Part shown: one piece after another, positions 6,300 to 64,000 of the stretch | Layout of the letters: every line of letters begins with the position of its first letter | Numbering within the stretch: the stretch's first letter is position 1 | Assembly (NCBI GenBank): GCA_948144175.1 | Contig: CANXME010002091.1 | Coordinates: forward strand, 372,001 to 436,000 | DNA from: Closterium sp. NIES-65 | Lineage: Eukaryota; Streptophyta; Zygnematophyceae; Desmidiales; Closteriaceae | DNA length: 64,000 nt | Reading direction: 5' to 3' | Notes under the pieces: generated by a model | What the model was told of the DNA's origin: nothing | The model's input: the letters and a program-made list of their open reading frames with translations, nothing else | Databases searched by the model: none | Program-made: the position numbers and the translations under genes

Positions 6300-7366
6300 A
6301 AATAGCAGCAGTAGCAGTAGGAGAAGCAGGTAGGACGAACCAGGTAGGGCAGGGCGGCGCGGCTCGGTTCAGGTCGGGTCGCGGCTCGGCTGGGTGGCGC
6401 GGCTCGGTTCAGTGCGCGCGGCTCGGCTCGGGGCGCGTGGCCTGGCTCGGGGCGCGCGGCTCGGGTCACGGCGGAGACGAGCCGCCCGCTCTCCCTCGTG
6501 TGCTGCGGCGGGAACGGGCCGCCTGGGGCCTCTAGGTGGTGGGCACGGGTCGGCGAGGTCGGCACGGGGCCGGTTGGGGCCCTAGAGGGGCGAGCGCGGG
6601 GCCGATCGGGGCCTGAGCGGGGCTAGCGCGGGGCCAAACGGGGCCTTGACGGGGCTAGTAAGGGGCCGACTGGGCCTGAACGGGGCTAGCGCGGGGCCGA
6701 CGGGTCCTGAAACGGGGCCGACGGGGCCTGAAACGGGGCTAGCGCGGGCCCGATCGGGGCCTGAATGGGGCTAGCGCGGGGCCGACGAGGCCTGAGAGGG
6801 GCTAGCGCGGGGCCGACCGGGCCTGAAACGGGGCTAGCGCGGGCCTACGGGGCCTGAGAGGGGCTAGCGCGGGGCCGACGGGGCCTGAAACGGGGCCAAC
6901 GGGGCCTGAAACGGGGCTAGCGCGGGCCGACAAGGCCTGAGAGGGGCTAGCGCGGGGCCGACGGGGCCTGAAACGGGGCCGACGGGGCCTGAAACGGGGC
7001 TAGCGCGGGCCGACGGGGCCTGAGAGGGGCTAGCGCGGGGCCGACGGGGCCTGAAACGGGGCCGATAGGGCCTGAACGGGGCTAGCGGGGGGCCTGAACG
7101 GGGCCTTAAAGGGGCCGACGGGGCCTGAACGGGGCCGCTAGGGAGAGCGGGCGTGGGGCCGACGGGGCCTGAACGGGGCTAGCGCGGGGCCTGAACGGGG
7201 CCTTAAAGGGGCTGACGGGGCCTGAACGGGGCCGCTAAGGAGAGCGGGCGTGGGGCCGACGGGGCCTGAACGGGGCTAGCGCGGGGCCGTCAAGAGGGGC
7301 CTCTAGGGGCGTGACACGCCGAGGCGCCCTAGGGCACAGGTAGGTAGGTAGGTAGGTAGTTACGTA
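6300..7366 (-). repeat. GC-rich tandem array in the leader of B
   Basis: Degenerate tandem units built on GGGGCCTGAAACGGGGCTAG and GCGCGGGGCCGAC (roughly 30-65 bp, mainly about 6590-7290) fill the untranslated leader between the primer site and gag. A short (TAGG)n run lies at about 7340-7360. Long open frames here are by-products of the repeats. Confidence 0.75.
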
Positions 7367-7417
7367 GTGGTGGGCCCTTAGAAAATTTCGGTCCTAGGAA
7401 GGACCTGCTCTATACCA
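7367..7417 (-). promoter_or_regulatory. Primer-binding site and tRNA-iMet-like leader start of B
   Basis: In element sense it starts TGGTATAGAGCAG, close to the plant copia primer site TGGTATCAGAGC, and ends with the complement of GTGGTGGGCCC. Between them lies a 6-bp hairpin GGTCCT/AGGACC with a 4-base loop. Confidence 0.75.
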
Positions 7418-11387: not shown

Positions 11388-11435
11388 GTGGTGGGCCCTA
11401 GGAACAGTTCCCACAGGGGAACCTGCTCGATACCA
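11388..11435 (-). promoter_or_regulatory. Primer-binding site and tRNA-iMet-like leader start of C
   Basis: In plus-strand reading it runs GTGGTGGGCCC, then CCCACAGG, then GCTCGATACCA, in the same order as in the 3' half of initiator tRNA-Met. It contains the hairpin GTTCCC/GGGAAC with loop ACAG. Confidence 0.75.
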
Positions 11436-15290: not shown

Positions 15291-16452
15291 CCACGCCAGG
15301 AGCAGTAGTAGAAGCAAGAGCAGCAGGAGCAGCAGTAGCAGTAGCAGCAGCAGTAACATGGGCAGGGCAGTGCTCACCAGTGGTGGGAAGGGTAGGCGCA
15401 CGACGGAGGCGATTGCGGGGCCGTTACAGCGGCAGGGCGGGGTCGCGACCGCGGCAGGAAGCTCCGCAGCAGTTGCTGCAGGGCGGGACCGGGCCGCAAC
15501 GGCGGCTGGTGCAGGGCAGGGACAGGGCTGCGACGGTCGCTGCTACAGGGGCGGGTGCTCCAGGGGCGGCTGCTCAAGGGGCCGGGGGCGGCTCCTGCAG
15601 TGGCGGCTGCTCCAATGGCCAGGGGCGGCTGCTGCAGGGGCGGCCGCTCCAGGGGCCAGGGACAGCTGCTGCAGTGTTGGCCGATCCAGGGGCCGCTGCT
15701 CCAGGGGCCCGGCGCGGGTTAGGGCAAGGCGATGCGGCGGGCAGGGGCGACGCTGCGGGCAGGGCGATGCGGCGGGAAGGGGCGACGCGGCGGTCAGGGC
15801 GACGCAGCGGGCAGTGGCAATGCCGCGGGCAGGGGCGACGTGGCGGGCAGGGCGACGCGGCGGGCAGGGGCGACGCCGCGTCAGTAGGAGGACGCGGCCG
15901 CGTCAGCTGCAGGGCTGGCGGGGCCGCGTCACGGCAGGGCGGGGCCGCGACTGCGGCCTGACGGGGCCGCGACTGCGGCCTGACGGGGCCGCGACTACGA
16001 CCTGACGGGGTCGCGCCCTGGCCTGACGGGCCTGCAGAGGCTGCGTGCGGGTGGCGCGGGCCTGCAGGGGAGGCGCGCGGTCGGGCAGAAGCTTCGTGCG
16101 GGCGGCGTGGTCCTGCAGGGGCAGCACGCCAACCTGACGGGCCTGCAGGGGCGGCTCTCGGGCCTGACGGGCCTGCAGAGGCGGCTAGGGGACCTGACGG
16201 GCCTGCAGAGGTGGCTCGGGGGCCTAACGGACCTGCAGGGGCGGCTCGAGGGCCGTACTAGCTTGCAGGGGCGGCGCACTGACCTAGGGCAGCAAGAGGC
16301 AGCGCGAGGGCTGCAGGACGGCGTGTAGGCAGAACGAAGGGCGGGGCGCGTGAGGGCGCACTAGCAGAAAAAGGGCGCACGAGGGCATAAGCAGAGACAG
16401 ACGCACGAGGGCACACGTAAGGTAGGGCACACGAGGGCGCTCCTAGCGGAAT
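15291..16452 (-). repeat. GC-rich leader array of D
   Basis: Degenerate units such as GGGGCGACGCGGCGGGCAGG and GGCCTGACGGGCCTGCAGG fill the leader. No gene is visible. Confidence 0.7.
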
Positions 16453-16506
16453 AGTGGGCCCATAGTAGTAAGCGGTCCTAGGTGGCAACCTAGGCTCGTG
16501 ATACCA
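16453..16506 (-). promoter_or_regulatory. Primer-binding site and best-kept tRNA-iMet-like leader (D)
   Basis: Plus-strand order: GTGGGCCCATA (anticodon arm side with CAT), GGTCCTAGG, a short loop, AACCTAGGCTC (T-arm side), GTGATACCA (acceptor end). Every block has a counterpart in plant initiator tRNA-Met, as recalled from memory. Confidence 0.8.
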
Positions 16507-18023: not shown

Positions 18024-18071
18024 TGGTATAGAGCAGGTTCCCCTGTGGGAACTGTTCCTAGGGCCCACCGA
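18024..18071 (+). promoter_or_regulatory. Primer-binding site, hairpin and tRNA-iMet-like leader start of F
   Basis: TGGTATAGAGCAG is followed by the hairpin GTTCCC-CTGT-GGGAAC (18037-18052) and GGGCCCACC. Confidence 0.78.
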
Positions 18072-21549: not shown

Positions 21550-24500
21550 TCAAGAAGTGAGCAAATGTGGGACAGTGGGCACGAGGCCTAGAACAGTACA
21601 GAAGCGCTGATGGTCACAAGGCTGAAGCGCCTTGGTGAACACGTCAGCAGTGTTGGCCCGAGTGGCCACGTAACGCAGACAAAGCTGACCTCGCTGCTGC
21701 AGCTCTCGAGCAAGAAAGTAGCGCAGAGCAATGTGCTTCGTCCTGTGCTCCAGTCTGTGCTCCCCACACAAGGCAATGGTGGCCTTGTTGGCGACGTACA
21801 GCACTGGAGGAGAACGAGGCTGCTCTCCAAGGTCAGTCAGCAGGTAGGTGAGCCAGCGAAGCTCCTGGGCAGCCATGGTCGTGGCGTAGATCTCAGCCTC
21901 ACAGCTGGAGCTGAGAACAGAAGAAGAGCGAGTAGAACGCCAAGAGACAGAGCCAGAGCCAAGGCTGAAGGTGTAACCGTGGGACGACCGCTGAGTAGCC
22001 TGGTCGTCTGCCCAAGAAGCGTCTGAGTGCCCAGTGAGAACAGGCCGGTCTCGCCCTCCAAGCACTAGCCCCATGCCCGACGTACTGCACAAGTAGCGCA
22101 ACACCCTCTTAGCTGCATCCATGTGCTCCTTCCGGTGACGGCCGGGAGCGACATAGCGTGCTAAGATGCTGAGAGGGTATGCAAGGTCAGGTCGAGTGCA
22201 GGTCATCAGGTACATGAGGCAGCCCACAAGCTCTGGATACGGACCACTCGGCTCTACAGACTCATCCGAAGGCAGAGCTGAGAGCGAGTGTCCCGTAGGC
22301 AGAGGAGTGGACTGAGGCGAGGAGTACGTGAAGCCGAAGCGCTGAAGGACCTGCTGCACCATGTGTGACTGAGTCAAGGTGATGGTGCGGCGTGCTCTGT
22401 CCCGGGTGATCCGCAAGCCAAGATAGCTTGTCAGTTCACCCAGGTCTGTGCACGTGTGTCTCTTCTGCAGCTCGGACTTCACGTGAGCAAGACCAACTGT
22501 GTCAGAAGTGGCAAAGACCAAGTCATCGACGTACACGAGGATGTAGAACGGCGGCAGTGAGGGGTCGGTGCGTAGAAACAGCGACGGGTCAGCAGTAGAA
22601 GGAGCGAACCCAAGAGCCGCAAGTGTAGTCCTCAGTGTGTCGTGCCACTCACGTGGCGCCTGGCGGAGACCGTAGACTGGCCGCCGGAGGCTCCACTGGG
22701 TACCAGGAGGGAACGACCCAGTGAAGCCAGGTGGGCGGCGCAGCCAGATCTCCTCGTGCAGGCTGCCCTGCAAGAAAGCTGTGCTGAAGTCAAGAGAGTG
22801 GAGCTCGTAGTCACGCTGAGCGGCGACGTGTAGCAGAACCCGAAGAGTGGTCATCTTTGGGGTCGGGGAGAAGGTCTGGAAGAAGTCAACTCCCTCTCGC
22901 TGACTGAAGCCTCGTGCAACGTAACGCGCCTTGAAGACAGGCGGAGAGCCCGGCGGCCGCTTCACCCTGAAAATCCACATGCCACTGACGATGTTCGCCC
23001 CAGGTGGGGGAACCTCGTCGACGTAGGTGCCAGTGGACTTCCAGGAAGCCATCTCTGTGTCCATGGCTGACTGCCACTGAGAGGAGTAGGGACCGGCCAT
23101 CGCCTCTGCGTAAGAGCGTGGGGTCGGGATGTCTGGTGCATCCGGGTCTCCCTTAGGGGCAACAAGCATGGACACGAGATGGGGCAAAGCAGCGGCAAGG
23201 CAACCAAACTCCTCGTGCCTGTCCTCAAGAACGTCCGTGTCAAGAGCACACTCACCCCCGACGGACGGAGGATAGACAGACTCAGACTCAGCAACAAGAC
23301 TCGCAGCGTAGTCTAGACGACACGCAGCTGCAAAGTCGACAAGCTCAGTGACTAAGGCAGACGCAGCAGCGGACTCAAAGGAAGGGTCAGTGACAACCGT
23401 AGCCAGGAGACGTGTGACAGTAGGACTGGCAGCGCGAAGGGTGTCTGACTCCGGGTCAGCAAGAGCAGGAAGAGAGGACGCAGGAGGCGACGGGAGAGCG
23501 ACACGCTGCGGAGCAGTGGACTGACGAAGCGCCATCTGGTGAGTGCCTGGGACAGCAGGAGGACGCTGACTCTGGACACGACTACCAGTGGTAGCAGCAT
23601 GAACAGGCGACGCTCGACAAGACGCAGGTGACACAGGACGTGACGCAGGCTCACGTCTCTCAGCAAGACCTCCAGTCGGACCAGTGTAAGGAGTAGGCAC
23701 AGGGAGTGGGGAGGCAGGCGGTAACTGTGGCTGTGACTGGACAGACGGCGAACACTCTAAGGCGAGAGGAGGACAAGGAGGAGGACGCTGACCAAGAACC
23801 TGCTGAAGGAGCGGAACGAAGTACGGCCGTGGCCGTGCAGCAACTCTCGAACCAGCAGAGACACCAGCGGCAGCAGCAGCACCTCCAAAAGCACCAGCAG
23901 CACCTCCAGCAGTAGCAGCACCTCCAGCACCAGGGTCCGCAGCACCCGCACCAGCTCCAACGCCCGGGTCCTCAGTACGAGCAGCACCTCCAGCAGCACC
24001 GCCAGCAGCAGCAGCACCTCCAGCACCAGGGTCCGCAGCACCCGCAGCAGCGTCAACTCCGGGGACCTGAGCACCAGCAGCTCCACTCCGGAGACAGATG
24101 TGCCGAGCGTACCACTCTCGAAGCTGTGGGGAAGAGGGCGGCTCCCGCCGTGGTGGGGAAACACAAGTACCAAATCCAGTAGCACCACGAGCTCGAGACG
24201 CACCCCGCCGGAGGCTGCAGTACCGTGAGTACCACTCACGTAGCTGCTGTGAAGAGGGAGGTCCTCCAGGCGCCTCACAGTCAACTGCAACACCACCAGG
24301 CTCAGCACCCCCAGACTCAGCAACGCCAGGCTCAGTACCCTTAGACCCAGCACCCCCAGGCTCAGCACCCCCAGTCTCAGTACCCCCAGACTCAGCACCC
24401 CCAGGCTCAGTACCCCCAGTCTCAGCACCCCCAGACTCAGCACCCCCAGGCTCCGCCCGCTCAGGCTCCGCACGCTCAGGCTCCGCACGCTCAGGCTCAG

Positions 24501-27500
24501 CACCTCTAGCAGGACGCGAGTCGACAGCTACCTCGGCAGGCTCAACCGGGTCTACCTGAGAGACACCTAAGGGAGCGGCACCCTGAGGGGGGAGGTGGTC
24601 TACCACTGCAACACCTGGCGCAAGGAAGAGAGGCGGGGGAGGGAGCTGGGCAGTGGGGTAGGGGAAGAGGCGGTAGAAGGGCACGGACTCGTCAAAAGTG
24701 ACGTCCTGAGAGGGGAAGACGCGGTGCAAGGCGGGGTGGTAAAACTGCCAGCCAGACGCATCCGGTACAAAGCCAAGAAAGACACAGGGAGCAGTGCGGG
24801 AGGAGAGCTTGTCCGCAGACGTGTCACGAACAAAAGCTCGAGATCCCCAGACACGGAAGCGTGACGCATCGCCAACCTCCCCCGTCCACAGCAGTGTGGG
24901 CGAGGTCTCCGGAGCGGAGACACGGGGCCAGAGGTTGAGCTGATGCGCAGCGTACCGGACTGCAAACGGCCACAAAAAGTGGGGGGCAGCCGCGTGGACT
25001 AAGGAGGTACGACCGACCTCCATGACCAAGCCAATGCGGCGCTCAGCAACCCCATTCTGCTGTGGAGAGGCCGGAAGCGTGAACGACTGGCGAATGCCGT
25101 GCTCAGCACAGTAGGCTGCCAAGAGGTCGGAGGAGAACTCGCCACCTCTGTCAGAGTGCAAGCGTAGGACAGGAAACTCCGAGCGAAAACGCTCTCGCAG
25201 CTGAAGACGTGCTCTGCTGATTCAAGGGATCAGGACATCAGGGACTTCACCCTTGGTGCGCAAGGGGAAGACCGTGGTGTAGCGCGAGTAGTCGTCAACG
25301 ACGATCAAGAAGTACCTCTTCTGGCCCTGACCATGGACGCGGGCTGGGCCCCACACGTCCATGTGGAGCGTCTGCAAAGGAGGAGTCGTCGGGGGGAACG
25401 AGGAGGAGTGAGGGGCAGCGCGCTGCCGCCCCTCGACACAGGGAAGACAAGGAGGAGCAAGGGAGGGTGGGAGGGGAGGGAGTACCCGAGGAAGACCAGA
25501 GACAAGGTACCGGGCGTGCATGCCCCGAAGGCGTTGCACTGACGGGTGACCAAGTCGGTGGTGCCAGAGGACAGTCTTGTGCGCTAGAGAGCGACACGAG
25601 CAGGGGGCAGACAGCTGACCTGACGCAGACGCAGACGCAGACGCCGCTACCTGAGGGGACTCAGTGGTCAGTGTGTACAGGTCCGACCCTGGCTGCCGAG
25701 TGAAGGTAGCTAGGTGACGGCCCGTCCGAGCACACGTGCAGTGTGTCACGCGCTCGTAGGCAGGGGTGAACTGGTGAACACCCCCATCCTGAAGCGCACA
25801 ACCCGCCACCAAGTTCGTAGAGAACGAGGGGAGGTGGAGACCTGACAGTGTGCCCGACGGGACAGCAGGACAAGGAAGGAGGGTGGAGGAGGTCGCAATG
25901 ACCGGACCCCCAGAGGGGTCAGCGAGCGAGACAGCGACTGGTCGAGCAAGGGGCTCAAGAGCAGTGCGGTCACGAAAGAAACAGCGCGAAGCGCCTGAGT
26001 CTAGAGTGAAGGTGTGCAGTGCCTCAGTGGACTCAGTAGTACCTGGGGCGGAGGACACACAAGCACCTAGAGCAGTAGCCTCACCAGCACCTGGGGCAGC
26101 AGACACGCAAGCACCTAGGGCGGCAGCCTCACTCGTGCGGATGCCTGGGTCAGGCGGAACACTCAGGCACTGGTCCTCCTCTCCACTAATAGTCAATGCA
26201 TACATTGCTTTGAGAATAACATCAAAATCAAGAGCATAGATATCGATATCCTTCTTGAGGAGATCAGCCCACTGAGGGAGCTCAGGAGCGTCAGGAAACT
26301 GAGCACGCCAAGCGTCATCTAGGCGAGAGAAGCAGCGCTGCGCAATGTGCGCCCTCCCGCACGTCTGTCCCTTGCGGCGACCAGTGCGGATGACGTACGT
26401 GCAGCTAAGGCTACCCCCCCCACCTCCGTGCTGTAAGTACCACTCACGAAGCTCCTGGGAGGACTGAGGGTGCTGCGCACTCTGGCCAGTGCCAGAGCCT
26501 CCACGACCACCACCGCCGCCTCCACCACGACCACCACCGCCCCTGCCGCCGCCATGTCCACTGCCGCCACCACCACCGCCCCCACCCCGGCCACCGCCGC
26601 CGCCGCTGCCTCCACCACCCCCACCGCTGCCACTAGCCCCTCCAGCCCCGCCACCGCCCCCACCGCTGCCACCACCCCCACCACCGCCGCCCCCGCCGTC
26701 ACCCCCACCGCCCTTGCCTCCCCTGCCCTTGCCGCTGCGGCGCCCTCTGGGAGCGGACGCAGAGCCGATCTGCTCAGCACCATGAAGGTCGACAGCAGCA
26801 GCAGAGGCGACAGAGGGGAGGAGGGGGGAGGGGGAACACCCCTCGAAGAAAGGGGTGCGGGGGTCGCCACGAGAGGCACCTACAGCTACAATACTCTTCT
26901 CAGCTGCAAGTAGTTCCTTCTCTAGGGCGGCAATGGTGAGCTCAGTGGGGCAGCGAGCTAAGAAGTGGTCCCTGACTGTACGCAGAGTGTCAGGGAGGCG
27001 GGTGACTAGGTGGTAGAGAGTGAGCCAGAGCGGGGGAGGGTTGGAGGCAAGAAACTCAGCGGGCATGGCTGCACGGAAGCGGGCATCACTAGTACGGAGG
27101 TGAGTGATGAGGTCAGCGACTGTCTGGAAAGCGGACAGGTCGGGGAACAGGTAGGGAAGGGAGAGACGGCCTAGTGCAGCTGAGGCCGGGGAGGAGTAGC
27201 GCGCAACTACAGCAGTGTACAGGGCCTGCGCAGTCTGATGCTGGCCAAAGTGCTCGCGCTCATCGACTGGCAGGGAGTTGCGAATGGCAAAGCGGGCGTG
27301 GGCATCGCGAGTCTGCCACTGCGAGCGAGCAGTAGCGGTAGCAGTAGTAGCAGGAGCAGGGACTGTGCCTAGTGCGTGATCGTACAGCAAGATATCCTCT
27401 CTGGCAGTGAGCTGGAGGAACAGGTGCAGATCATCGAGCCAGGTCTCAAACTTAATCGGGCGGCCCTCAGCATCAAACGAGAGAACTGTAGGGCTAGCCA

Positions 27501-27501
27501 T
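21550..27501 (-). pseudogene. gag-pol coding region of G
   Basis: In order: type-2 gag from 27501 (MASPTVLSFDAEGRP), poly-Gly near 26780-26480, LREWY and the zinc finger near 26400-26330, protease LDSGASRCFF near 26010, LWHHRLGHPS near 25560, HMDVWGP near 25360, LHSDRGGEF near 25150, a spacer with GGAEPGG repeats and two LREWY motifs (24640-23760), MWIFRVKRP near 22970, YVDDLVFA near 22530, HSDASWADD near 22020, and the RNase H end at 21550. The product would be a roughly 2000-residue polyprotein. About one break. Confidence 0.88.
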
Positions 27502-27519
27502 AGCTGAAGCAGTAGCAGT

Positions 27520-28217
27520 GGCAGCAGTAGTAGTAGCAGGAGTAGCAGTAGCAGCAGTGGTAGTAGCAGTAGGGCGGCGCGGCTCGGCTAGGGCGGCGCG
27601 GCACGGCTAGAGCGGCACGGCTCGGCTAGGGCGGCGCGGCTCGGTCGGGTCGCGCGGCTCAGTCGGGTCGCGCGGTTCGGCTCGGTCCTAGAGGGGCGAG
27701 CGCGGGGCCGGGTGGGGCTGCTAAGGGAGAGCGCAGGGCCGTCCAGGGCGAGGGGGAGGCCGGTTGGGGGCCGTTCGGGGCTAGTGCGGGGCTGTTCGAG
27801 GCTAGCGCGGGGCCGACGGGGGCCTTAGGGGGGGGGCTAGCGCGGGGTCGAGGGAGGCCGTGAGAGGCTAGCGCGGGGGCCGCACGGGGCCATTCGGGGC
27901 TAGCGCGGGGCCGTTCGGGGGCCGTGAGAGGCTAGCGCGGGGCCGACGGGGGCCTTAGGGGGCTAGCGCGGGGCTAGCGCGGGGCCGACGGGGGCCTTAG
28001 GGGGCTAGCGCGGGGCCGATCGGGGGCCGTGAGAGGCTAGCGCGGGGCCACACGGGGCCTTGAGAGGTTAGCGCGGGGCCGTAAGGGGCCTTAAGAGGGC
28101 GACGCGAGGGGCTGTGAGGGGCCTTAAGGGGCGACGCGAGAGGGCCTTAGGGGGCCTTAAGAACGAGGTGCTCGAGGCGCAGGAAAAGGCGGCGCACGAG
28201 GGCGCGGCGAGCGGAAA
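27520..28217 (-). repeat. GC-rich leader array of G
   Basis: Units of GAGGCTAGCGCGGGGCCGAC and GGGGGCCTTAGGGGGCTAG. Next to gag lies a stretch of AGCAGTAGTAG-type trinucleotides (about 27500-27570). Confidence 0.7.
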
Positions 28218-28268
28218 CGGTGGGCCCTATCGTTTCGGTCCTAGGCGGAACCTAGGCTCGTAATACCA
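28218..28268 (-). promoter_or_regulatory. Primer-binding site and tRNA-iMet-like leader start of G
   Basis: Plus-strand order: GGTGGGCCCTAT, GGTCCTAGG, CGGAACCTAGGCTCG, AATACCA. It keeps the T-arm-like hairpin CCTAGG/CCTAGG and resembles the leader of D. Confidence 0.78.
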
Positions 28269-36365: not shown

Positions 36366-36494
36366 TGTCAGAATGTTATCTTATGCTCTAGCCTGTAGTG
36401 GGGTGCTCTATAGCGATTACAACCCTTCTAGGGTTTGCTATTTGTATCCCCATTCTTGCTAGTGCAATCCTCTTCTCTCTTCTAAATTTTCACA
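36366..36494 (+). repeat. 5' LTR of the short element
   Basis: 129 bp, TGTCAGAATG...TTTTCACA. Confidence 0.9.
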
Positions 36495-36547
36495 TGCTAT
36501 CAGAGCAAGTCGATCCCATTGGATCGATCCTGTGGGTGGGTTACCAC
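36495..36547 (+). promoter_or_regulatory. Primer-binding site and hairpin of the short element
   Basis: TGCTATCAGAGCAAG is followed by the perfect hairpin TCGATCC-CATT-GGATCGA (36510-36527) and by CCTGTGGGTGGGTTACCACC, which parallels the antisense anticodon arm of tRNA-iMet. Confidence 0.75.
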
Positions 36548-37683
36548 CTCATCGCTTCCGCTGCAACTACCTTTCACTACTCTCTGAGCCGCACGCCCCC
36601 TGGCGTGCGGCACTTTTTCTTCCCGCCGTGCGCCCCGAGGCGCGCAGCGGTTTTCTGCCCCGTCGTTCGCCGCGTCGCCCTCTAGAGGCACCGCGACGGG
36701 CGACGGGGACCCGTCGCGGCGCACCGAGGGCACGCCCCTCGGCCCCGTCGCCCTACCTGCGCCCCGGCCCCGGGCCCGCCTGCGGCCCCGGCCCCGACGC
36801 CCTACCTGCGCCCCGGCCCCATCGCCCTACCTGCGCCCCGGCCCCGGCCCCGCCTGCGGCCCCTTTTCCCGTCGCCTGTCGAGGCGACCCTCGAGGACTT
36901 AACTGGGGGAGGGGGGCGAGCGCTGCCCCTTCTGCTGCCTGTCTTGGCGCCCAGGGAGGCCGCGCGTCGATTCCCCCCCCCCCCCCCCCCCCCTCCCCCG
37001 TAACCTCCCTACCCGCCATCCTGCCCTGCCTGTGTTAGGGTTTGGGGAGTGGCGAGTAGGGGGTGGCGAGTATGGGGGTGGCACTTCTGCATTCCTCCCT
37101 TTGCTCCTCCTCCTCCTTTGTCTCCCACTGCTGCAGCTGTCGCTGAGGGGGGTGGATGTGTGGGAGACTGGGGTTTAGGGTTTAAGGGGGGTGCGTGGGA
37201 GTGGAGCTAGCGGTGTAGCAGCGGGTGTGTGCCAGGGGGAGTGGGATAGTTTGGGGAAGCTGTATGGAGGTTGCCGTCGTGTCGCCAGCAGCACCTGTAT
37301 TCCGGGGACTTCGTCCGGTAGCCCAGTCGTAGCCAGCTGTGTCAGCCGCCCGTGGGTCCGTTGCTCGTCTGCCGCTACTTTAGCCGCGGGGCCTGTTACT
37401 CGTGTATTCCGGGGACTTCGTCCGGTAGCCGCTATGCCAGTCTGCCTCCTGTTGCCCGTGTGTCTGCAGCTTCTTCCGTCGCCTCCTATCTCCTCTCCTC
37501 TCACTCTCTCTCCTCCTCCTCACTTGCCCGTTGTGACTACCTCTAGCTTTGCTCATAATTGTGAACTTTAAACTATTGCTTCTTGAACTTGTGCTCAGAA
37601 TGTGTGGTGACATTGTGATCCACCCTGAGCTTGTTCTGTTTTGCTTACTCTGCTGATTACACCCCACTTTGGCTATGGGGGTG

Positions 37684-37812
37684 CGTCAGAATGTTATCTT
37701 ATGCTCTAGCCTGTAGTGGGATGCTCTATAGCGAGTACAACCCTTCTAGGGTTTGCTATTTGTATCCCCATTCTTGCTAGTGCAATCCTCTTCTCTCTTC
37801 TAAATTTTCACA
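37684..37812 (+). repeat. 3' LTR of the short element
   Basis: 129 bp, about 98% identical to the 5' copy. Confidence 0.9.
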
Positions 37813-45122: not shown

Positions 45123-45174
45123 TGGTATAGAGCAGGTCCTTCCTAGGACCAATTTTTTCAGGGCCCACCACTAC
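45123..45174 (+). promoter_or_regulatory. Primer-binding site, hairpin and tRNA-iMet-like leader start of I
   Basis: TGGTATAGAGCAG, hairpin GGTCCT-TCCT-AGGACC, then GGGCCCACCAC. Confidence 0.78.
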
Positions 45175-45928
45175 CTACCTACCTACCTACCTGCGCCCTA
45201 GGGCGCCTCGGCTTTCACGCCCCTAGTGGCCCCGTCGGCCCCGCGCTCTCGCACCTAGAGACCTCGGTCGGCCCCGCGCTCGCTTTTAGAGGCCCCGAAT
45301 CGGACCCGCGCTTACCCCTAGAGGCCCGCGTCGGCCCCGCGCTCGTCCTTAACGGCCCCGAATCGGCCCCGCGCTTACCCCTAGAGGCCCGCGTTGGCCC
45401 CGCGCTCGTCCCTTCCGGCCCCGATCGGCCCCGCGCTCGTCCCTCACGGCCCCGATAGGCCCCGCGCTCGCCCTTAGAGGCCCACGTCGGCTCCGCGCTC
45501 GTCCCTTACGGCCCCGATCGGCCCCGCGCTCGTCCCTCACGGCCCCGATAGGCCCCGCGCTCGCCCTTAGCACCCACGTCGGCCCCGCGCTCGTCCCTCA
45601 CGGCCCCACCCGCTCCCCGCGCTCGCCCTTAGCGGCCCCGAATGGCCCCACCCAGACCGAGCAGCCCGAACCGAGCCGACCCGAGCCGCCCAGCCCTAAC
45701 GGAAACGAGCCGCCCGACCCGAGCTGCCAGCCCTAACCGACCCGAGCCGCCCGAACCGAACCGCCTGAACCGAGCCGCGCCGCCCGACCCGAGCCGCCCG
45801 AACCGAGCCGCGCCGCCCGACCCGAGCCGCGCTGCCCTACATATACCGAGCCGCGCCGCCCTACCTGTACCGAGCCGCGCCGCCCTACCTACCCTACTGC
45901 TCCTACTGCTTTTCCTACTGCTACTACC
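45175..45928 (+). repeat. Leader array of I
   Basis: A (CTAC)n run (45175-45193), then tandem GGCCCCGATCGGCCCCGCGC and GCTCGTCCCTCACGG units, then CCGAGCCGCC repeats up to gag. No gene is visible. Confidence 0.7.
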
Positions 45929-48900
45929 ATGGCTAGCCCTCCTGTGCTAGCCTTCGATGCTAAGGGCCGCCCAGTGAAGTTCGACACCTGGCTTGATGAC
46001 CTACACCTATTTCTACAGCTCACTGCCAAGGAAGACATCTCGCTGTACGATCATGCCTTAGGCCACGCTACTCCTCCTGCTGCTACTGCTGACAGCACTG
46101 CCCGCTCACAGTGGCAGACTCGTGACGCCCATACTCGCTTCGCTATTCGCAACTCTCTGCCGATAGATGAGCGCGAGCACTTTGGGCAGCACAAGACTGC
46201 ACAGGCACTGTACACTGCTGTCGTTGCCCGCTACTCCTCACCGGCCTCTGCCGCTCTAGGCCGTCTCTCTCTTCCCTACTTGTTCCCCGACTTAGCTTCC
46301 TTCCACACTGTCGCTGATCTCATTACCCACCTCCGCACTAGTGAGGCTCGCTTCCGCGCCGCTATGCCTGATGAGTTCCTTGCCAAGAACCCACCCCCGC
46401 TCTGGCTCACTCTCTACCACCTAGTCACGCGCCTCCCTGATACTCTGCGCTCAGTCAGGGACCACTTCCTAGCTCGTTGCCCCACCGAGCTCACCATTGC
46501 CCTCCTCGAGAAGGAACTCCTTGCAGCTGAGGCTAGCATAGTCGCTGTAGGTGCCTCTCGCGGTGACCCCCGTACCCCGTTCTTTGAGGGGTGTTCTCCC
46601 TCCCCCCTTCTTCCCTCTATCGCCTCTGCTGCTGCTGTCGACCTCCTTGGTGCTGAGAAGGTCGGGACTGCGTCTGCTTCGAGTGGACGCCGCAGCGGCA
46701 AGGGCAAGGGGGGCAAGGGCGGTGGTGGTGACAGCGGGGGTGGCGGTGGTGGGGGAGGTGGTGGTGGCGGGGGGGGTGGCGCGGGTGGGGGAGGTGGCAG
46801 CAGTGGGGGGGGTGGCGGCAGCGGCGGGGGAGGTGGCCGGGGCGGAGGAGGTGGTGGGGGTGGCGGTGGACGAGGCGGCGGCCGGGGTTGGGGTGGTCGA
46901 GGAGGTGGTAGCGGCGGTGGTGGTCGTGGAGGCACTGGCGGTGGCCAGGGCCAGCAGCACACTCCGTCGCCCCAGGAGGTCCGTGAGTGGTACTCTCAGC
47001 ACGGGGGGGGGGGGGGGGGGGTGGCCTTAGCTGCACGTACGTCATTCGCACTGGTGACCGCACTGGCCAGACGTGTGGGGGACCGCACGCCACACAGCGT
47101 TGCTTCGCTCGTCTGAACGACGCTTGGCGTGTTCAGTTCCCTCAGGCCACTGAGCTGCCCCGCTGGGTTGATCTCCTGAAGAAGGGGATTGATATTTATG
47201 CTTTAGACTTTGATGCTATTCTCACTGCCATGTATGTGATGTCTACTAGTGGAGAGGGTGCTGAGTACCTGAGTGTCCCGCCCGACCCGGGCATTAGGAC
47301 TAGTGCGTCTGCCGCTCCAGGTACTCGCGTGTCCGCTACCCCAGGTGCTGGTGAGGCTGCTGCTCTAGGTGCGTGTACGTCTGCCCCCCCTAGTACTGTG
47401 TCGACTGCAGCACTGCACACCTTCACACTGGATTCAGGTGCCTCTCGTTGTTTCTTTCGTGACCGCACTGCCCTTGAGCCCCTTGCTCGGCCAGTTGCTG
47501 TCTCCCTCGCTGACCCCTCTGGGGATCCGGTCCTTGCGACCTCCTCCTCTGTCCTTCCCTGTCCTGCGGTCCCGTCGGGCACACTGTCAGGTCTCCACCT
47601 CCCCTCGTTCTCTACGAACTTGGTGGCAGGTTGTGCACTACAGGACGCGGGTGTTCACCAGTTCACCCCTGCCTACGAGCGTGTCACACACTGCACGTGT
47701 GCCCGTACAGGCCGCCACTTGGCTACCTTCACCCGGCAGCCGGGGTCGGACCTGTACACACTGACTACTGCCCCCCCTCAGGTCGCTGCGTCTACGTCTG
47801 CGTTAGCGTCAGGTGAGCTGTCCGCCCCCTGCTCGTGTCGCTCTCTAGCGCACGAGACTGTCCTCTGGCACCACCGACTGGGCCACCCGTCTATGCAGCG
47901 CCTTCGTGCCATGCACTCCCGGTACCTTGTCTCTGGTCTTCCCCGGGTCCTCCCTCCCCTCCCACCCTCGCCTGCTCCTACCTGTCTTCCCTGTGTCGAG
48001 GGGCGGCAGCGCGCCGCTCCTCACTCCTCCTCGTTTCCCTCGACGACTGCTCCTTTGCAGACGCTCCACATGGACGTGTGGGGCCCAGCCCGCGTCCGTG
48101 GTCAGGGTCAGGAGAGGTACTTCGTGATCGTTGTTGACGACTACTCGCGCTACACCACGGTCTTCCCCTTGCGCGCCAAGGGTGAGGTCCCTGATGTTTT
48201 GATCCCTTGGATCCGCAGAGCTCGTCTCCAGCTCAGCGAGCGTTTCCGCTCGGACTTTCCTGTCCTGCGCTTGCACTCTGACAGAGGTGGTGAGTTCTCC
48301 TCCGACCTCTTGGCAGCCTACTGTGCTGAGCACGGCATTGAGCAGTCGTTCACGCTTCCGGCCTCTCCACAGCAGAATGGGGTTGCGGAGCGCCGCATTG
48401 GCCTGGTCATGGAGGTCGCTCGTACCTCCTTGATCCATGCGGCTGCCCCCCATTTTCTGTGGCCGTTTGCGGTCCGGTACGCTGCGCATCAGCTCAACCT
48501 CTGGCCCCGTGTCTCCTTGCCGGAGACCTCGCCCACGCTGCTGTGGACGGGGGAGGTTGGCGATGCGTCGCGTTTCCGGGTCTGGGGATCTCGAGCTTTT
48601 GTCCGCGATTCGTCTGCGGACAAGCTCTCCTCTCGTGCTGTTCCCTGCGTCTTCCTCGGCTTTGTTCCGGACGCGCCTGGTTGGCAGTTTTACCACGCCA
48701 CCTCGCGCCGGGTCTTGCCCTCTCAGGACGTCACTTTTGACGAGTCTGTTCCCTACTACCGCCTCTTCCCCTACCGCACTTCCCCGCTCCCTCCCCCGCC
48801 TCTCTTCCTCGCGCCAGGTGCTGCTGTCGTAGACCCCCTCCCCCCTCAGGGTGCCGCTCCCTCAGGTGTGTCTCAGGTAGACCCGGTCGAGCCTGTTGAG

Positions 48901-51900
48901 GTAGCTGTCGACTCTCGTCCTGCTGGGGGTGCTGAGCCTGGGGGTGCGGAGACTGGGGGTGCTGAGCTTGGGGGTGCTGACTCTGGGGGTGCTGAGCCTG
49001 GGGGTGCGGAGACTGGGGGTGCTGAGCCTGGGGGTGCGGACACTGGGGGTACTGAGCCTGGGGGTGCTGAGCCTTGGGTTGCGGTGACTGGGAGTGCTGA
49101 GCCTGGCGGTGCTGGGCCTGATGGTGCTACACCTGGACGAGACCTCTCCTCGGAGCAGTTGCGTGAGTGGTACTTACAGTACTGCAGCCTCCGGAGTGTT
49201 ACCTCTGGGACCAGGCGCACTACAGGGACTGGGGCTGGTACTTCTCCTCCTAGTCGGGAGCTCCCCTCTCGTGAGCGGATCCGTGAGTGGTACGAGCGCC
49301 GTTGCACACTTCGGAGTGGTGCGCCTCGTCTCACGGACCCGGCTGCCCCTGGTGCTACGGACCCGGGCGTTGGAGCTGCTGCTGGTGCTGCGGACCCTGG
49401 CGTTGGAGCTGCTGCTGGTGCTGCGGACCCTGGCGTAGGAGCTGCTGCTGGTGCTGCGGACCCGAGGGTTGGAGGTGCTGCTGGTGCTGAGGAACCGGGC
49501 GTTGGGGCTGCGGCTGGTGCTGCGGACCCTGGCGTTGGAGCTGCGGCTGGTGCTGTGGACCCTGGTGTCGGAGTCCCTGCTGGTGCTGAGGACCCGGGCG
49601 TTGGAGCTGCTGCAGGTGCTGTGGACCCTGGTGTTGGAGCCACTGCTGGTGGTGAGGACTCGGGCGTTGGTGCTGAGGCTCGTACTGAGGACCTGGGCGT
49701 TGGAGCTGCTGCTGGTTCTGTACTGCCGCTAGGGGTACAGGTGCTGTCCCTGCTGTGTTTGGAGTCGCTGCGCGCCCTCAACCTTACTTCGTTCCGCTCC
49801 TTCAGCAGGTTCTTGGTCTCTCGCCTCCTCCTGGTCCTCCTCCCTTAGCGTGTTCACAGCCTGTCCCGTCACAGTTACAGTTGCAGCCGGCCTCCCCACT
49901 ACCTGCTCCTTCTCCTTACACTGGTCCTACTGGCGGTCTTACTGAGCGTCGTGAGTCTGCGTCTCGTCCTGCGTCGCCTGTCCGTCCTGCTAGCGCTAGT
50001 GCTCGTAGTTCGCGCCAGCGTCCTTCTCCCGCCCCTGGCACGCACCGGATGTCTCTACGTCCGTCTACTGCTCCTCTGCGTGCCCCTTTGCCTTCTCCTC
50101 CTGCGTCCTCTCTTCCTGCTCTCGCCGACCCTGCGTCGGACTCTCTTCGTGCTGCCAGTCCTACTGTCACGCGTCTCCTTGCTACTGCCGTCACTGACCC
50201 TTCCTTTGAGTCTTCTGCTGCGTCTGCCCTAGTTGCTGAGCTCGTCGACTTTGCTGCTCGCTGTCGCCTAGACTACGCTGCGAGTCTTGTCGCTGAGTCT
50301 GAGTCTGTCTGTCCTCCGTCCGTCGGGGGTGCGTGTGCCCTTGGCACGGACGTCCTTGAGGACAGGCAGGAGGAGTTCCAGTGCTTGGCCGCTGCTTCAC
50401 CTCATCTCGTGTCCGTACTGCTTGCCCCTGAGGGAGACCCGGATGCACTTGACATCCCGACTCCGCGCTCTTACGCGGAGGCGATAGAGGGTCCCTACTC
50501 CTCTCAGTGGCAGGCAGCTATGGATGCAGAGATGGCTTCCTGGGAGTCCACAGGCACCTACGTTGACGCTGTCCCCCCTCCTGGGGCGAACATCGTCAGT
50601 GGCATGTGGATCTTCAGGGTGAAGCCGCCGCCGAGTTCTCCGCCTGTCTTCAAGGCGCGTTACGTGGCTCGTGGCTTCAGTCAGTGACAGGGAGTTGACT
50701 ACTTTCAGACCTTCTTCCCCACCCCGAAGATGACCACTCTTCGGGTACTGCTGCACGTTGCTGCTCACCGTGACTACGAGCTGCAGTCTCTCGACTTCAG
50801 CACAACTTTCTTGCAGGGCAGCCTGCACGAGGAGATCTGGCTGCGCCGCCCACCTGGCTTCATTGGGTCTTTCCCTCCTGGTACCCACTGGAGTCTCCGG
50901 CGTCCAGTCTACGGTCTCCGCCAGGCGCCACGTGAGTGGCACGACACACTGAGGACTACGCTTGCGGCTCTTGGGTTCGCTCCTTCTACTGCCGACCCGT
51001 CGTTGTTTCTGCGCACCGACACCTCTCTGCCGCCGTTCTTCATCCTCGTGTACGTCGACGACTTGGTCTTTGCCACAGCTGACACTACTGGACTCGCCTA
51101 CGTGAAGTCCGAGCTGCAGAAGAGACACACGTGCACAGACCTGGGTGAGCTGCGCAGCTACCTTGGCTTGCAGATCACCCGGGACAAAGCACGTCGCACC
51201 ATTACCCTGACTTAGTCACACATGGTGCAGCAGGTCCTTCAACGCTTCGGCTTCACGTACTCCTCGCCTCAGGCCACTCCTCTGTCTACTCGCCACTCAC
51301 TCTCAGCTCTGCCTTCGGATGAGTCCGTAGAGTCGAGTGGCCCGTACCTAGAGCTTGTTGGCTGTCTCATGTACCTGATGACCTGCACACGACCTGACCT
51401 TGCATACCCTCTTAGCATTCTTGCACGCTATGTTGCTCCTGGGAGACACCGACCAGAGCACATGGCTGCAGCGAAGAGGGTGTTGCGCTACTTGTGCAGT
51501 ACGTCGGGCATGGGACTAGTGCTTGGAGGGCAGAGTCCCGTGGTCCTCACTGGACACACAGACGCTTTTTGGGCTGACGACCAGGCTACGCAGCGGTCGT
51601 CACAGGGTTACACCTTCAGCCTTGGTTCCGGCTCTGTTTCGTGGCGGGCTACTCGCTCGTCTTCTGTTCTCGGCTCCAGTTGTGAGGCTGAGATCTACGC
51701 AGGGGCCATGGCTGCTCAGGAGCTTCGCTGGCTCACCTACCTGCTGACCGACCTTGGAGAGCCGCCTCGTTCTCCTCCAGTCCTGTACGTCGACAACAAG
51801 GCCATGCTGGCCTTGTGTCGGGAGCAGAGACTGGAGCACAGAACAAAGCACATTGCTCTCCGCTACTTCCTTGCTCGTGAGCTACAGCAGCGTGGTCAGT

Positions 51901-53157: not shown

Positions 53158-53203
53158 GGTGGGCCCTAGGAACAGTTCCCACAGGGGAACCTGCTCTATA
53201 CCA
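53158..53203 (-). promoter_or_regulatory. Primer-binding site and tRNA-iMet-like leader start of J
   Basis: Plus-strand GGTGGGCCC, CCCACAGG, GCTCTATACCA, with the GTTCCC-ACAG-GGGAAC hairpin. Confidence 0.75.
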
Positions 53204-53476: not shown

Positions 53477-53524
53477 GTGGTGGGCCCAAGGAAGCGTTCC
53501 CACTAGGGAACCTGCTCTATACCA
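53477..53524 (-). promoter_or_regulatory. Primer-binding site and tRNA-iMet-like leader start of E
   Basis: Plus-strand GTGGTGGGCCC, the hairpin GTTCCC-ACTA-GGGAAC, then CTGCTCTATACCA against the LTR. Confidence 0.75.
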
Positions 53525-54569: not shown

Positions 54570-54617
54570 TGGTATCGAGCAGGTTCCCGAGTGGGAATAC
54601 TGCCTAGGGCCCACCAC
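54570..54617 (+). promoter_or_regulatory. Primer-binding site and tRNA-iMet-like leader start of K
   Basis: TGGTATCGAGCAG, hairpin TTCCC-GAGT-GGGAA, then GGGCCCACCAC. Confidence 0.75.
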
Positions 54618-63537: not shown

Positions 63538-63585
63538 GTGGTGGGCCCTAGGAATCGTTCCCGTTAGGGAACCTGCTCGATACCA
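63538..63585 (-). promoter_or_regulatory. Primer-binding site and tRNA-iMet-like leader start of L
   Basis: Plus-strand GTGGTGGGCCC, hairpin GTTCCC-GTTA-GGGAAC, then CTGCTCGATACCA. Confidence 0.75.
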
Positions 63586-63816: not shown

Positions 63817-64000
63817 TGGTATCGAGCAGGTTCCCCTGTGGGAACTGTTCCTAGGGCCCACCACCTTTTTTTTCCTGCCCGGAGCGCGCTCTACTCTGCC
63901 CGAGTCGCGCTCCCCTCTTTCAACCCTGTCGCGCCGCCTTAGCGGCTCCGTCGCGTCGCGCTTGCGGCCCCGTCGCATCGCCCTGTCTGGTATTTACCTC
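63692..64000 (+). mobile_element. Element M: start of a copia element at the window edge
   Basis: The 5' LTR (63692-63816, C type), the primer site TGGTATCGAGCAG with the GTTCCC-CTGT-GGGAAC hairpin (to about 63864) and GC-rich leader units. The last 18 bases (CTGTCTGGTATTTACCTC) resemble the protease-region sequence coding LSG.YL, so the leader may be short or rearranged; this is tentative. It runs off the window. Confidence 0.7.

Follow-up and report, generated by a model that had tools for sequence, protein, structure and literature searches.

Leaders of copia elements in Closterium are antisense to initiator tRNA-Met well past the usual primer-binding site

Results

Ty1-copia elements and their leaders in a 64-kb window

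The window, by which we mean the whole 64-kb stretch analysed here (G000:C1793:372001-436000, from a searched genome of 874 Mb), is crowded with Ty1-copia elements, many of them nested or broken. Seven of its eight long frames, and three of six further frames, encode RVT_2, integrase core, SH3 or gag-pre-integrase domains (Pfam; a few matches lie below the Pfam cut-off). Searches of the window for tRNA genes and for Rfam families at the curated score gave no match. In the element with the leader at 28268, RVT_2 is found with integrase and gag-pre-integrase upstream, in the domain order of Ty1-copia, the integrase core being divided between two frames with each part below the Pfam cut-off; the element with the leader at 45123 shows this order in part. 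The element of about 1.4 kb (Table 1) is probably non-autonomous. GC-rich tandem arrays lie just downstream of the leaders at 7417, 28268 and 45123 (6587-7289, 27767-28162 and 45218-45649, respectively), and many more tandem arrays, such as TGCGCGAG repeats, occur elsewhere in the window.

A preliminary description of this DNA had placed 12 leaders, and all 12 were found there, on both strands and directly after an LTR end. The junction reads CA followed by TGGTAT in 11 of them and by TGCTAT in the leader at 36495. These leaders are not independent, since 11 fall into 3 of the 19 clusters defined below, the one at 36495 standing alone.

Table 1. Leaders, coding stretches and short element of the window, with the number of shuffled leaders reaching the tRNA match and the 3' LTR partner (position of its end, identity of the LTRs)
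Feature	Position	Strand	Sequence content	Shuffles	3' LTR partner
Leader	7367..7417	-	GGGCCCACCAC, GGTCCT/AGGACC hairpin	0/500	4069, 95.7%
Leader	11388..11435	-	GGGCCCACCAC, TTCCC/GGGAA hairpin	1/500	
Leader D	16445..16506	-	TGGTATCACGAGC PBS, CCTAGGT/ACCTAGG hairpin, TATGGGCCCAC, TTCCGCT; hairpin and co-fold predicted	0/500	
Leader	18024..18069	+	GGGCCCACC, hairpin	12/500	35115 (likely), 98.8% over 83 bp
Ty1-copia coding stretch, two stop-free frames, downstream of leader 28268	21550..27606	-	gag_pre-integrs, SH3, RVT_2		
Leader	28210..28268	-	imperfect PBS TGGTATTACGAGC, hairpin, GGGCCCACC, TTTCCGCT	0/500	21188, 99.3%
Short element, ~1.4 kb	about 36367-37812	+	D-arm-type leader		LTRs 98.4% alike over 128 bp
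Leader of the ~1.4-kb element	36495..36564	+	TGCTATCAGAGC, T-arm region, GTGGGTGGG, D-arm complement CGCTTCCGCTGC	0/500	37812, 98.4%
Leader	45123..45171	+	GGGCCCACCAC, GGTCCT/AGGACC hairpin	0/500	52401, 96.9%
Copia coding stretch, downstream of leader 45123 and in its element	46987..49848	+	gag_pre-integrs, rve, SH3		
Leader	53158..53203	-	GGGCCCACC, hairpin sequence resembling that of 18024	24/500	
Leader	53477..53524	-	GGGCCCACCAC, GTTCCC/GGGAAC hairpin	11/500	38348 (likely), 96.8%
Leader	54570..54617	+	GGGCCCACCAC, hairpin	14/500	
Leader	63538..63585	-	GGGCCCACCAC, hairpin	26/500	
Leader	63817..63864	+	GGGCCCACCAC; segment identical to that of 11435	1/500	

Likeness of the leaders to antisense tRNA-iMet of this genome

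The tRNA-iMet genes were located with a plant tRNA-iMet sequence as query, which gave 34 matches, namely 32 loci at at least 94% identity and two leaders. ARAGORN called tRNA-Met at 23 of the 24 distinct loci tested and tRNA-Lys at the remaining, mutated copy. The T stem occurs in two main variants, CCAGG/CCTGG and CGAGG/CCTCG (eight loci compared), and the GGG/CCC anticodon stem is special to initiator tRNAs. Two other tRNA loci may be mentioned here. An initiator-like tRNA gene at G000:C842:3172764-3172836 (L035), in which CTT replaces the CAT anticodon, is called tRNA-Lys by ARAGORN, and locus L001 carries an intronless tRNA-Lys(TTT) and an intronless tRNA-Gly(TCC) at most 1 kb apart and has an organellar look; in land-plant plastids both genes usually carry introns, so that L001 may point to an algal host or to a mitochondrial locus.

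Leader bases 13 to 80 were aligned with antisense tRNA-iMet past base 12 and compared with 500 dinucleotide shuffles of each leader. All 12 leaders scored better than at least 474 of their shuffles, so that the possibility raised by the preliminary description itself, that the genome's tRNA-iMet might align past the primer-binding site (PBS) no better than with shuffled sequence, does not apply. Five leaders (7417, 16506, 28268, 36495 and 45123) beat all 500 shuffles, two were reached by a single shuffle, and the others by 11, 12, 14, 24 and 26. In each of the 12, the antisense score exceeded the scores of the sense strand and of the reversed tRNA. The antisense likeness of the leaders to this genome's initiator tRNA-Met extends far beyond the customary 9 to 18 bases.

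The block order first described for the leader at 16453-16506 was seen again, as were the same blocks at 28218-28268. A match of about 50 bases had been claimed; the likeness to antisense tRNA-iMet does extend far beyond the PBS, but as a chain of blocks and not continuously, the T-arm region matching poorly. The block at the far end was present as the exact word GTGGTGGGCCC in 7 of the 12 leaders, but only as GGTGGGCCC in those at 18024 and 53158. The leader at 36495 is without GGGCCC, yet the D-arm complement CGCTTCCGCTGC is present.

Extent of the copy and blocks retained

Two leaders elsewhere in the genome resemble the tRNA more closely. L029 (C822:286117-286166) is 90% identical to bases 1 to 50 of antisense tRNA-iMet, and L030 (C1779:361191-361252) is 81% identical to bases 1 to 62, thus reaching the D loop; both include the untemplated CCA. 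Since the match includes a CCA that is absent from tRNA genes and starts exactly at the LTR edge, the primer tRNA is the likely source. A third leader, L088, resembles these two, and its match to the tRNA 5' end was reached by 0 of 1,000 shuffles, so that the copy in L088 may run, as far as its alignment indicates, to the 5' end. Among the 33 distinct downstream segments examined for such an extension, L088 was alone in being clear, three others gave p values of 0.036 to 0.044, and the rest did not fall below 0.05. With only 1 of 33 segments clearly above shuffles, a full-length ancestral copy is only a possibility, and the copy can be taken as firm no further than the D loop. The alignments show that in the best-kept families the leader is homologous to antisense tRNA-iMet from the CCA end to at least the D loop.

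The blocks that are kept differ by family: acceptor end, T-stem/variable-loop side, and anticodon-stem 5' strand or D arm, the loops being mostly lost. We profiled leaders carrying the D-arm complement, using 22 non-redundant leaders out of 50 taken among 81 listed. Antisense bases 23 to 28 and 31 to 34, which span the T-stem 5' strand, the variable loop and the beginning of the anticodon-stem 3' strand, persist in 17 to 21 of the 22, and bases 39 to 41 of the anticodon loop in one or two. Bases 43 to 51, the 5' side of the anticodon stem, aligned in seven or eight, a figure lowered in part by a deletion at which the local alignment breaks off. The middle portions of 15 of these 22 leaders were reached by at most 3 of 300 shuffles. 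In 33 of the 50 D-arm leaders GTGGG is joined straight to CCC, as if the seven loop bases between the GGG runs had been deleted, and GGGCCCAC is present in 9 of the 50. The abundant families retain TGGTAT, GAGC and GGGCCCAC(CAC), with a self-hairpin in the T-arm region, and those in the window are without the D-arm block. The complement of the anticodon loop, TTATGGGCCCAC, was found at four places after TGGTATCA and at one more with another PBS. A scar of misincorporation opposite m1A58 was looked for by eye and in the profile, where nothing special was seen, position 18 being kept in 11 of 22. In a test for wobble asymmetry, transitions that keep a pair numbered seven, as against four that break one.

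LTR edges and the priming site

Six of the 12 leaders have a credible 3' partner in the window, with the PBS at the edge of the 5' LTR. In these six elements both LTRs end in ACA, which is followed by TGGTAT (TGCTAT at 36495) after the 5' LTR and by other DNA after the 3' LTR. Partners were chosen by best similarity and strand and not by target duplications, the flanks being repetitive; weaker matches on the same strand were rejected (for example 11435/28267, 72.7%; 63817/35115, 95.8%; 63817/53088, 85.4%), and the pairs 18024/35115 and 53524/38348, which span other insertions, are likelier guesses than proofs. An LTR edge at ACA followed by TGGTAT indicates that the CCA end of the tRNA sets the edge and that the CCA end primes. 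The suggestion of a cleaved half-tRNA primer is therefore not upheld by these LTR ends.

The PBS itself is mostly imperfect. Among 100 leaders listed for the GGGCCCAC pattern, which are the first by contig order and not a random sample, PBS bases 7 to 12 differ from the tRNA in 88, the PBS is canonical over 12 bases in 12, and TGGTATAGAGC (47) and TGGTATCGAGC (29) dominate. These imperfect sites, including TGGTATTACGAGC in the element at 28268, whose LTRs are 99.3% alike, show that the tRNA is not the regular template for the PBS, as it would be if progeny inherited an exact tRNA complement in retroviral fashion. The proposal that reverse transcriptase copied past the T loop may hold for one old event; as a continuing process it is not supported, and ongoing read-through was rejected on this ground.

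The exact 18-base word GGTTATGGGCCCACCACG occurs at 29 sites genome-wide, all of them inside tRNA-iMet genes (places compared by eye). Consequently, the genome has neither a fresh copy with the exact sequence nor a half-tRNA-Met PBS that is exact in this sense. No PBS complementary to the anticodon region was found at an LTR edge. Together with the LTR ends, the confinement of GGTTATGGGCCCACCACG to tRNA-iMet genes led us to discard a half-tRNA as the productive primer.

Genome-wide occurrence

All genome-wide counts are of exact-word matches. TGGTATN{0,3}GAGC followed by GGGCCCAC within 20 to 50 bases occurs at 25,895 sites and the reversed pattern at none; with the same PBS and the permuted word CACCCGGG there were no sites, and two for the reversed form of that control. 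TGGTATCAGAGC followed by the D-arm complement CTTCCGCTGC, the GGGCCC block not being required, occurs at 1,039 sites (control, 0), so that the match does not end near the anticodon stem in all families, as had been thought. TGGTAT, GGGCCCAC and CGCTTCCGCT are combined at 72 sites (control, 0).

The canonical PBS was counted 7,145 times. In a sample chosen by the PBS alone (ACATGGTATCAGAGC; the first 40 of 100 listed places), 22 of the 40 were a tRNA-like repeat without the leader feature (20 recognised by motif, L122 and L136 by eye). Because these canonical-PBS places have an unrelated tRNA-like tail, 7,145 is no count of LTR elements, and 1,477 of the 7,145 was not taken as a fraction of elements. 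The repeat provided a built-in negative, since none of its 10 places tested fell below 101/500 shuffles. Of the other 18 places, 14 were reached by at most 6 of 500 shuffles and L127 by 42, while L101, L111 and L138 have a canonical PBS whose further match to tRNA-iMet was not significant in the shuffle test, indicating that the extension is not essential for every element.

The tRNA-like repeat, seen among L100 to L140, holds ACATGGTATCAGAGC, that is, an LTR end and a full copia PBS, where an anticodon arm would be expected, between motifs that we take to be an A box (TAGTGGTTGGG) and a B box (GGTTCGAATCC). In L140 (G000:C10:848700-849900) it forms head-to-tail units of about 237 bp. L108, L109, L117, L118 and L133 are apparent chimeras joined exactly at ACA and TGGTATCAGAGC, either a copia-like LTR end with the tail of the repeat or the head of the repeat with a copia leader; in the larger view offered by L140, the LTR-like end of L118 is itself the tail of a tRNA-like unit. 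Template switching at the PBS would explain such chimeras, for which Helenus elements (PMC10886601, available text) offer a comparison.

Ninety-three leaders, of which 61 were picked via GGGCCCAC patterns, 2 by tRNA likeness, 12 from the window and 18 by the PBS alone, formed 19 clusters; as 61 of 93 were picked via GGGCCCAC, its conservation and the cluster scores are partly ascertained. In 17 of the 19 clusters the match to tRNA-iMet was better than to any of six other tRNAs, which came from fetched loci and four of which look organellar; the exceptions were L111 and L138. Frames downstream of the leaders join many families into few groups, so that the number of independent tests is well below that of the clusters.

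Predicted folding and pairing with the tRNA

A hairpin in the leader was reached by at most 5 of 100 shuffles in 46 of 63 distinct segments, and 17 did not pass. The stems differ in sequence (GGTCCT/AGGACC, GTTCCC/GGGAAC, CCTAGGT/ACCTAGG, GGCGGCA/TGCCGCC). The predicted energy of the duplex with tRNA-iMet beyond the PBS beat all 200 shuffles in 15 of 20 representatives, the remaining five being reached by 1 (L104), 8 (L127), 45 (L138), 182 (L101) and 199 (L111) of 200. Together with the genome-wide counts and the alignments, these energies show that outside the PBS the leaders are more complementary to arms of the tRNA than chance would give, as in multipartite binding of the Ty1 type. In co-folding of 11 chosen leaders the hybrid followed the order of the tRNA, and the net gain lay between -14 and -54 kcal/mol (calculated without a shuffle control). 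The leader hairpin opened into the longer hybrid in 10 of the 11, while in L069 it stayed closed and the tRNA T arm remained folded.

Discussion

The leaders are, in our judgement from sequence comparison, probably an old copy of the primer tRNA that is kept as an extended, multi-block PBS. An ancestral copia element would have gained the copy in one old event in which reverse transcriptase continued deep into the tRNA that primed it, and its descendants would have kept those blocks through which the genomic RNA pairs with the tRNA at several places. A short contact with the acceptor 3' strand (TGGTAT..GAGC) would position the CCA end; a second would engage the variable-loop/T-stem 5' side (CCTGG, GGACC); a third, strong in G+C and seen mainly in the abundant families, would pair GGGCCCACCAC with the 5' strand of the anticodon stem; and a fourth would involve the D arm (CTTCCGCTGC) in other families. 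Such pairing may hold, and perhaps select, the initiator tRNA, minus-strand DNA being primed from the CCA end. The T-arm region would have drifted to a self-hairpin in the abundant families, which may fold alone beside the bound blocks or open into the longer hybrid. Against an extended PBS, families keep different blocks (as seen in the low counts of bases 43 to 51 and of GGGCCCAC among the D-arm leaders), 17 of the 63 hairpin segments do not pass, co-folding opens the hairpin in 10 of 11 leaders, L101, L111 and L138 do without the extension, and pairing requires the anticodon stem of the tRNA to open.

The same history could have left a neutral fossil, one ancient read-through inherited and decaying with no present role beyond the PBS. 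The best-kept copies are indeed rare, TTATGGGCCCAC surviving in so few places, the lack of an exact 18-base copy outside tRNA genes fits one old event, different families hold different blocks, and the abundant families of the window are without the D-arm block. We nevertheless consider a fossil unlikely, since decay is uneven, stem-side blocks staying while loops go, since paired stems persist with differing sequences, and since GGGCCCAC is still at 25,895 sites. Because the families share ancestry, descent and selection are only partly told apart as causes of retention; selection is argued from the uneven decay and the compensated stems and is not proven. If reverse transcriptase instead regularly copied past m1A58, the leader would be rewritten from the tRNA again and again, a process with which the one leader 90% identical over 50 nt and the scatter of canonical PBSs (12/100) among families with mostly imperfect ones would agree. 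We find this scarcely credible in view of the imperfect bases 7 to 12, which extend even to the element with 99.3% LTRs, and of the absence of exact 18-base copies outside tRNA genes; moreover, progeny PBSs of Ty1 and Ty3 are reportedly not copied from the tRNA (PMC5371799), in agreement with a PBS that is not regularly rewritten here.

Priming at GGGCCCACCAC by a tRNA-iMet fragment, the 5' half left by a cut in the anticodon loop, has precedents in Drosophila copia, Ty5, Osser and Bryco, which prime with the anticodon region of tRNA-iMet according to PMC5371799, PMC6317226 and PMC10886601. It is highly improbable in Closterium, where the complement of the anticodon loop is nearly always lost and where the LTRs of six elements, their 3' LTRs paired by similarity, end at ACA before TGGTAT. 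The block lies 35 to 45 nt downstream of those ends, and priming at it would shift the LTR edge to that place. The GGGCCC palindrome, self-complementary and abundant at that place, might also be an RNA dimerisation signal whose tRNA likeness is incidental. This, too, we regard as very unlikely: the match continues into ACCAC in many leaders, other families extend it with CTTCCGCTGC and TCCTGG..CCTGTGGG, all of these sequences are non-palindromic, and the leader at 36495 has lost GGGCCC but retains the D-arm block. A double role of the GGGCCC block, in dimerisation and in tRNA pairing, is possible.

A more speculative extension, which we hold to be distinctly doubtful, is that the antisense leader bridges the two priming modes of Ty1-copia elements. 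Copying most of the primer tRNA would give a CCA-end PBS and an anticodon-region half-tRNA site in one step, and loss of either site would lead to whole-tRNA lineages or to half-tRNA lineages such as Osser, Bryco, copia and Ty5. In this genome the families would have been caught with both sites, the second serving as a clamp.

Extended pairing between tRNA and genome has been worked out mainly in yeast Ty1 and Ty3 and in retroviruses. With 25,895 sites in many families, a single genome here offers a natural mutagenesis of a primer-binding leader, in which the sequence alone reveals which tRNA stretches stay matched and which may become a hairpin. It also holds a trace of how multi-part sites may arise, by copying of the primer, and bears on the shifts of copia elements between whole-tRNA and half-tRNA primers. 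For annotation, PBS length may be underestimated when the search ends at 9 to 18 bases.

In a literature search that covered few subscription papers, and those sources in part, we came across no account of a leader that is antisense to the larger part of its primer tRNA. The comparisons that follow are with the accessible portions of the papers cited. In plants, the copia PBS corresponds to the 3' end of tRNA-Met in most groups and to a half-tRNA-Met in Osser, Bryco and part of Gymco-II (PMC6317226). The 9-bp PBS of Sireviruses, TATCAGAGC, is likewise a CCA-end tRNA-Met site near the LTR edge, but its conservation falls sharply after nine bases (PMC2829016). The half-tRNA-Met PBSs of Drosophila copia, Ty5, Osser, Bryco and part of Gymco-II share with the Closterium leaders the complementarity to the anticodon region; in those elements, however, that site adjoins the LTR and primes, whereas here it lies 35 to 45 nt downstream of a CCA-end PBS. 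The bipartite PBS of Ty3 resembles the Closterium leaders in bringing the genomic RNA into contact with three arms of tRNA-iMet (acceptor, T and D), but its segments lie at opposite ends of that RNA (PMC4974528, PMC5371799). Ty1, with its PBS, Box 0 and Box 1 (PMC5454406), belongs to the same Ty1-copia superfamily, uses the same primer and likewise combines a short PBS with nearby downstream blocks. Its boxes are 6 to 7 nt long, complementary to the T and D hairpins, in a 5' part of the RNA that reaches into gag (PMC5454406), whereas the blocks of the Closterium leaders come after the PBS in the order that they have in the tRNA, seem to be copies of it, and include 8 to 11 nt complementary to the 5' strand of the anticodon stem. 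The main difference from Ty1 and Ty3 is thus the predicted contact with the anticodon arm.
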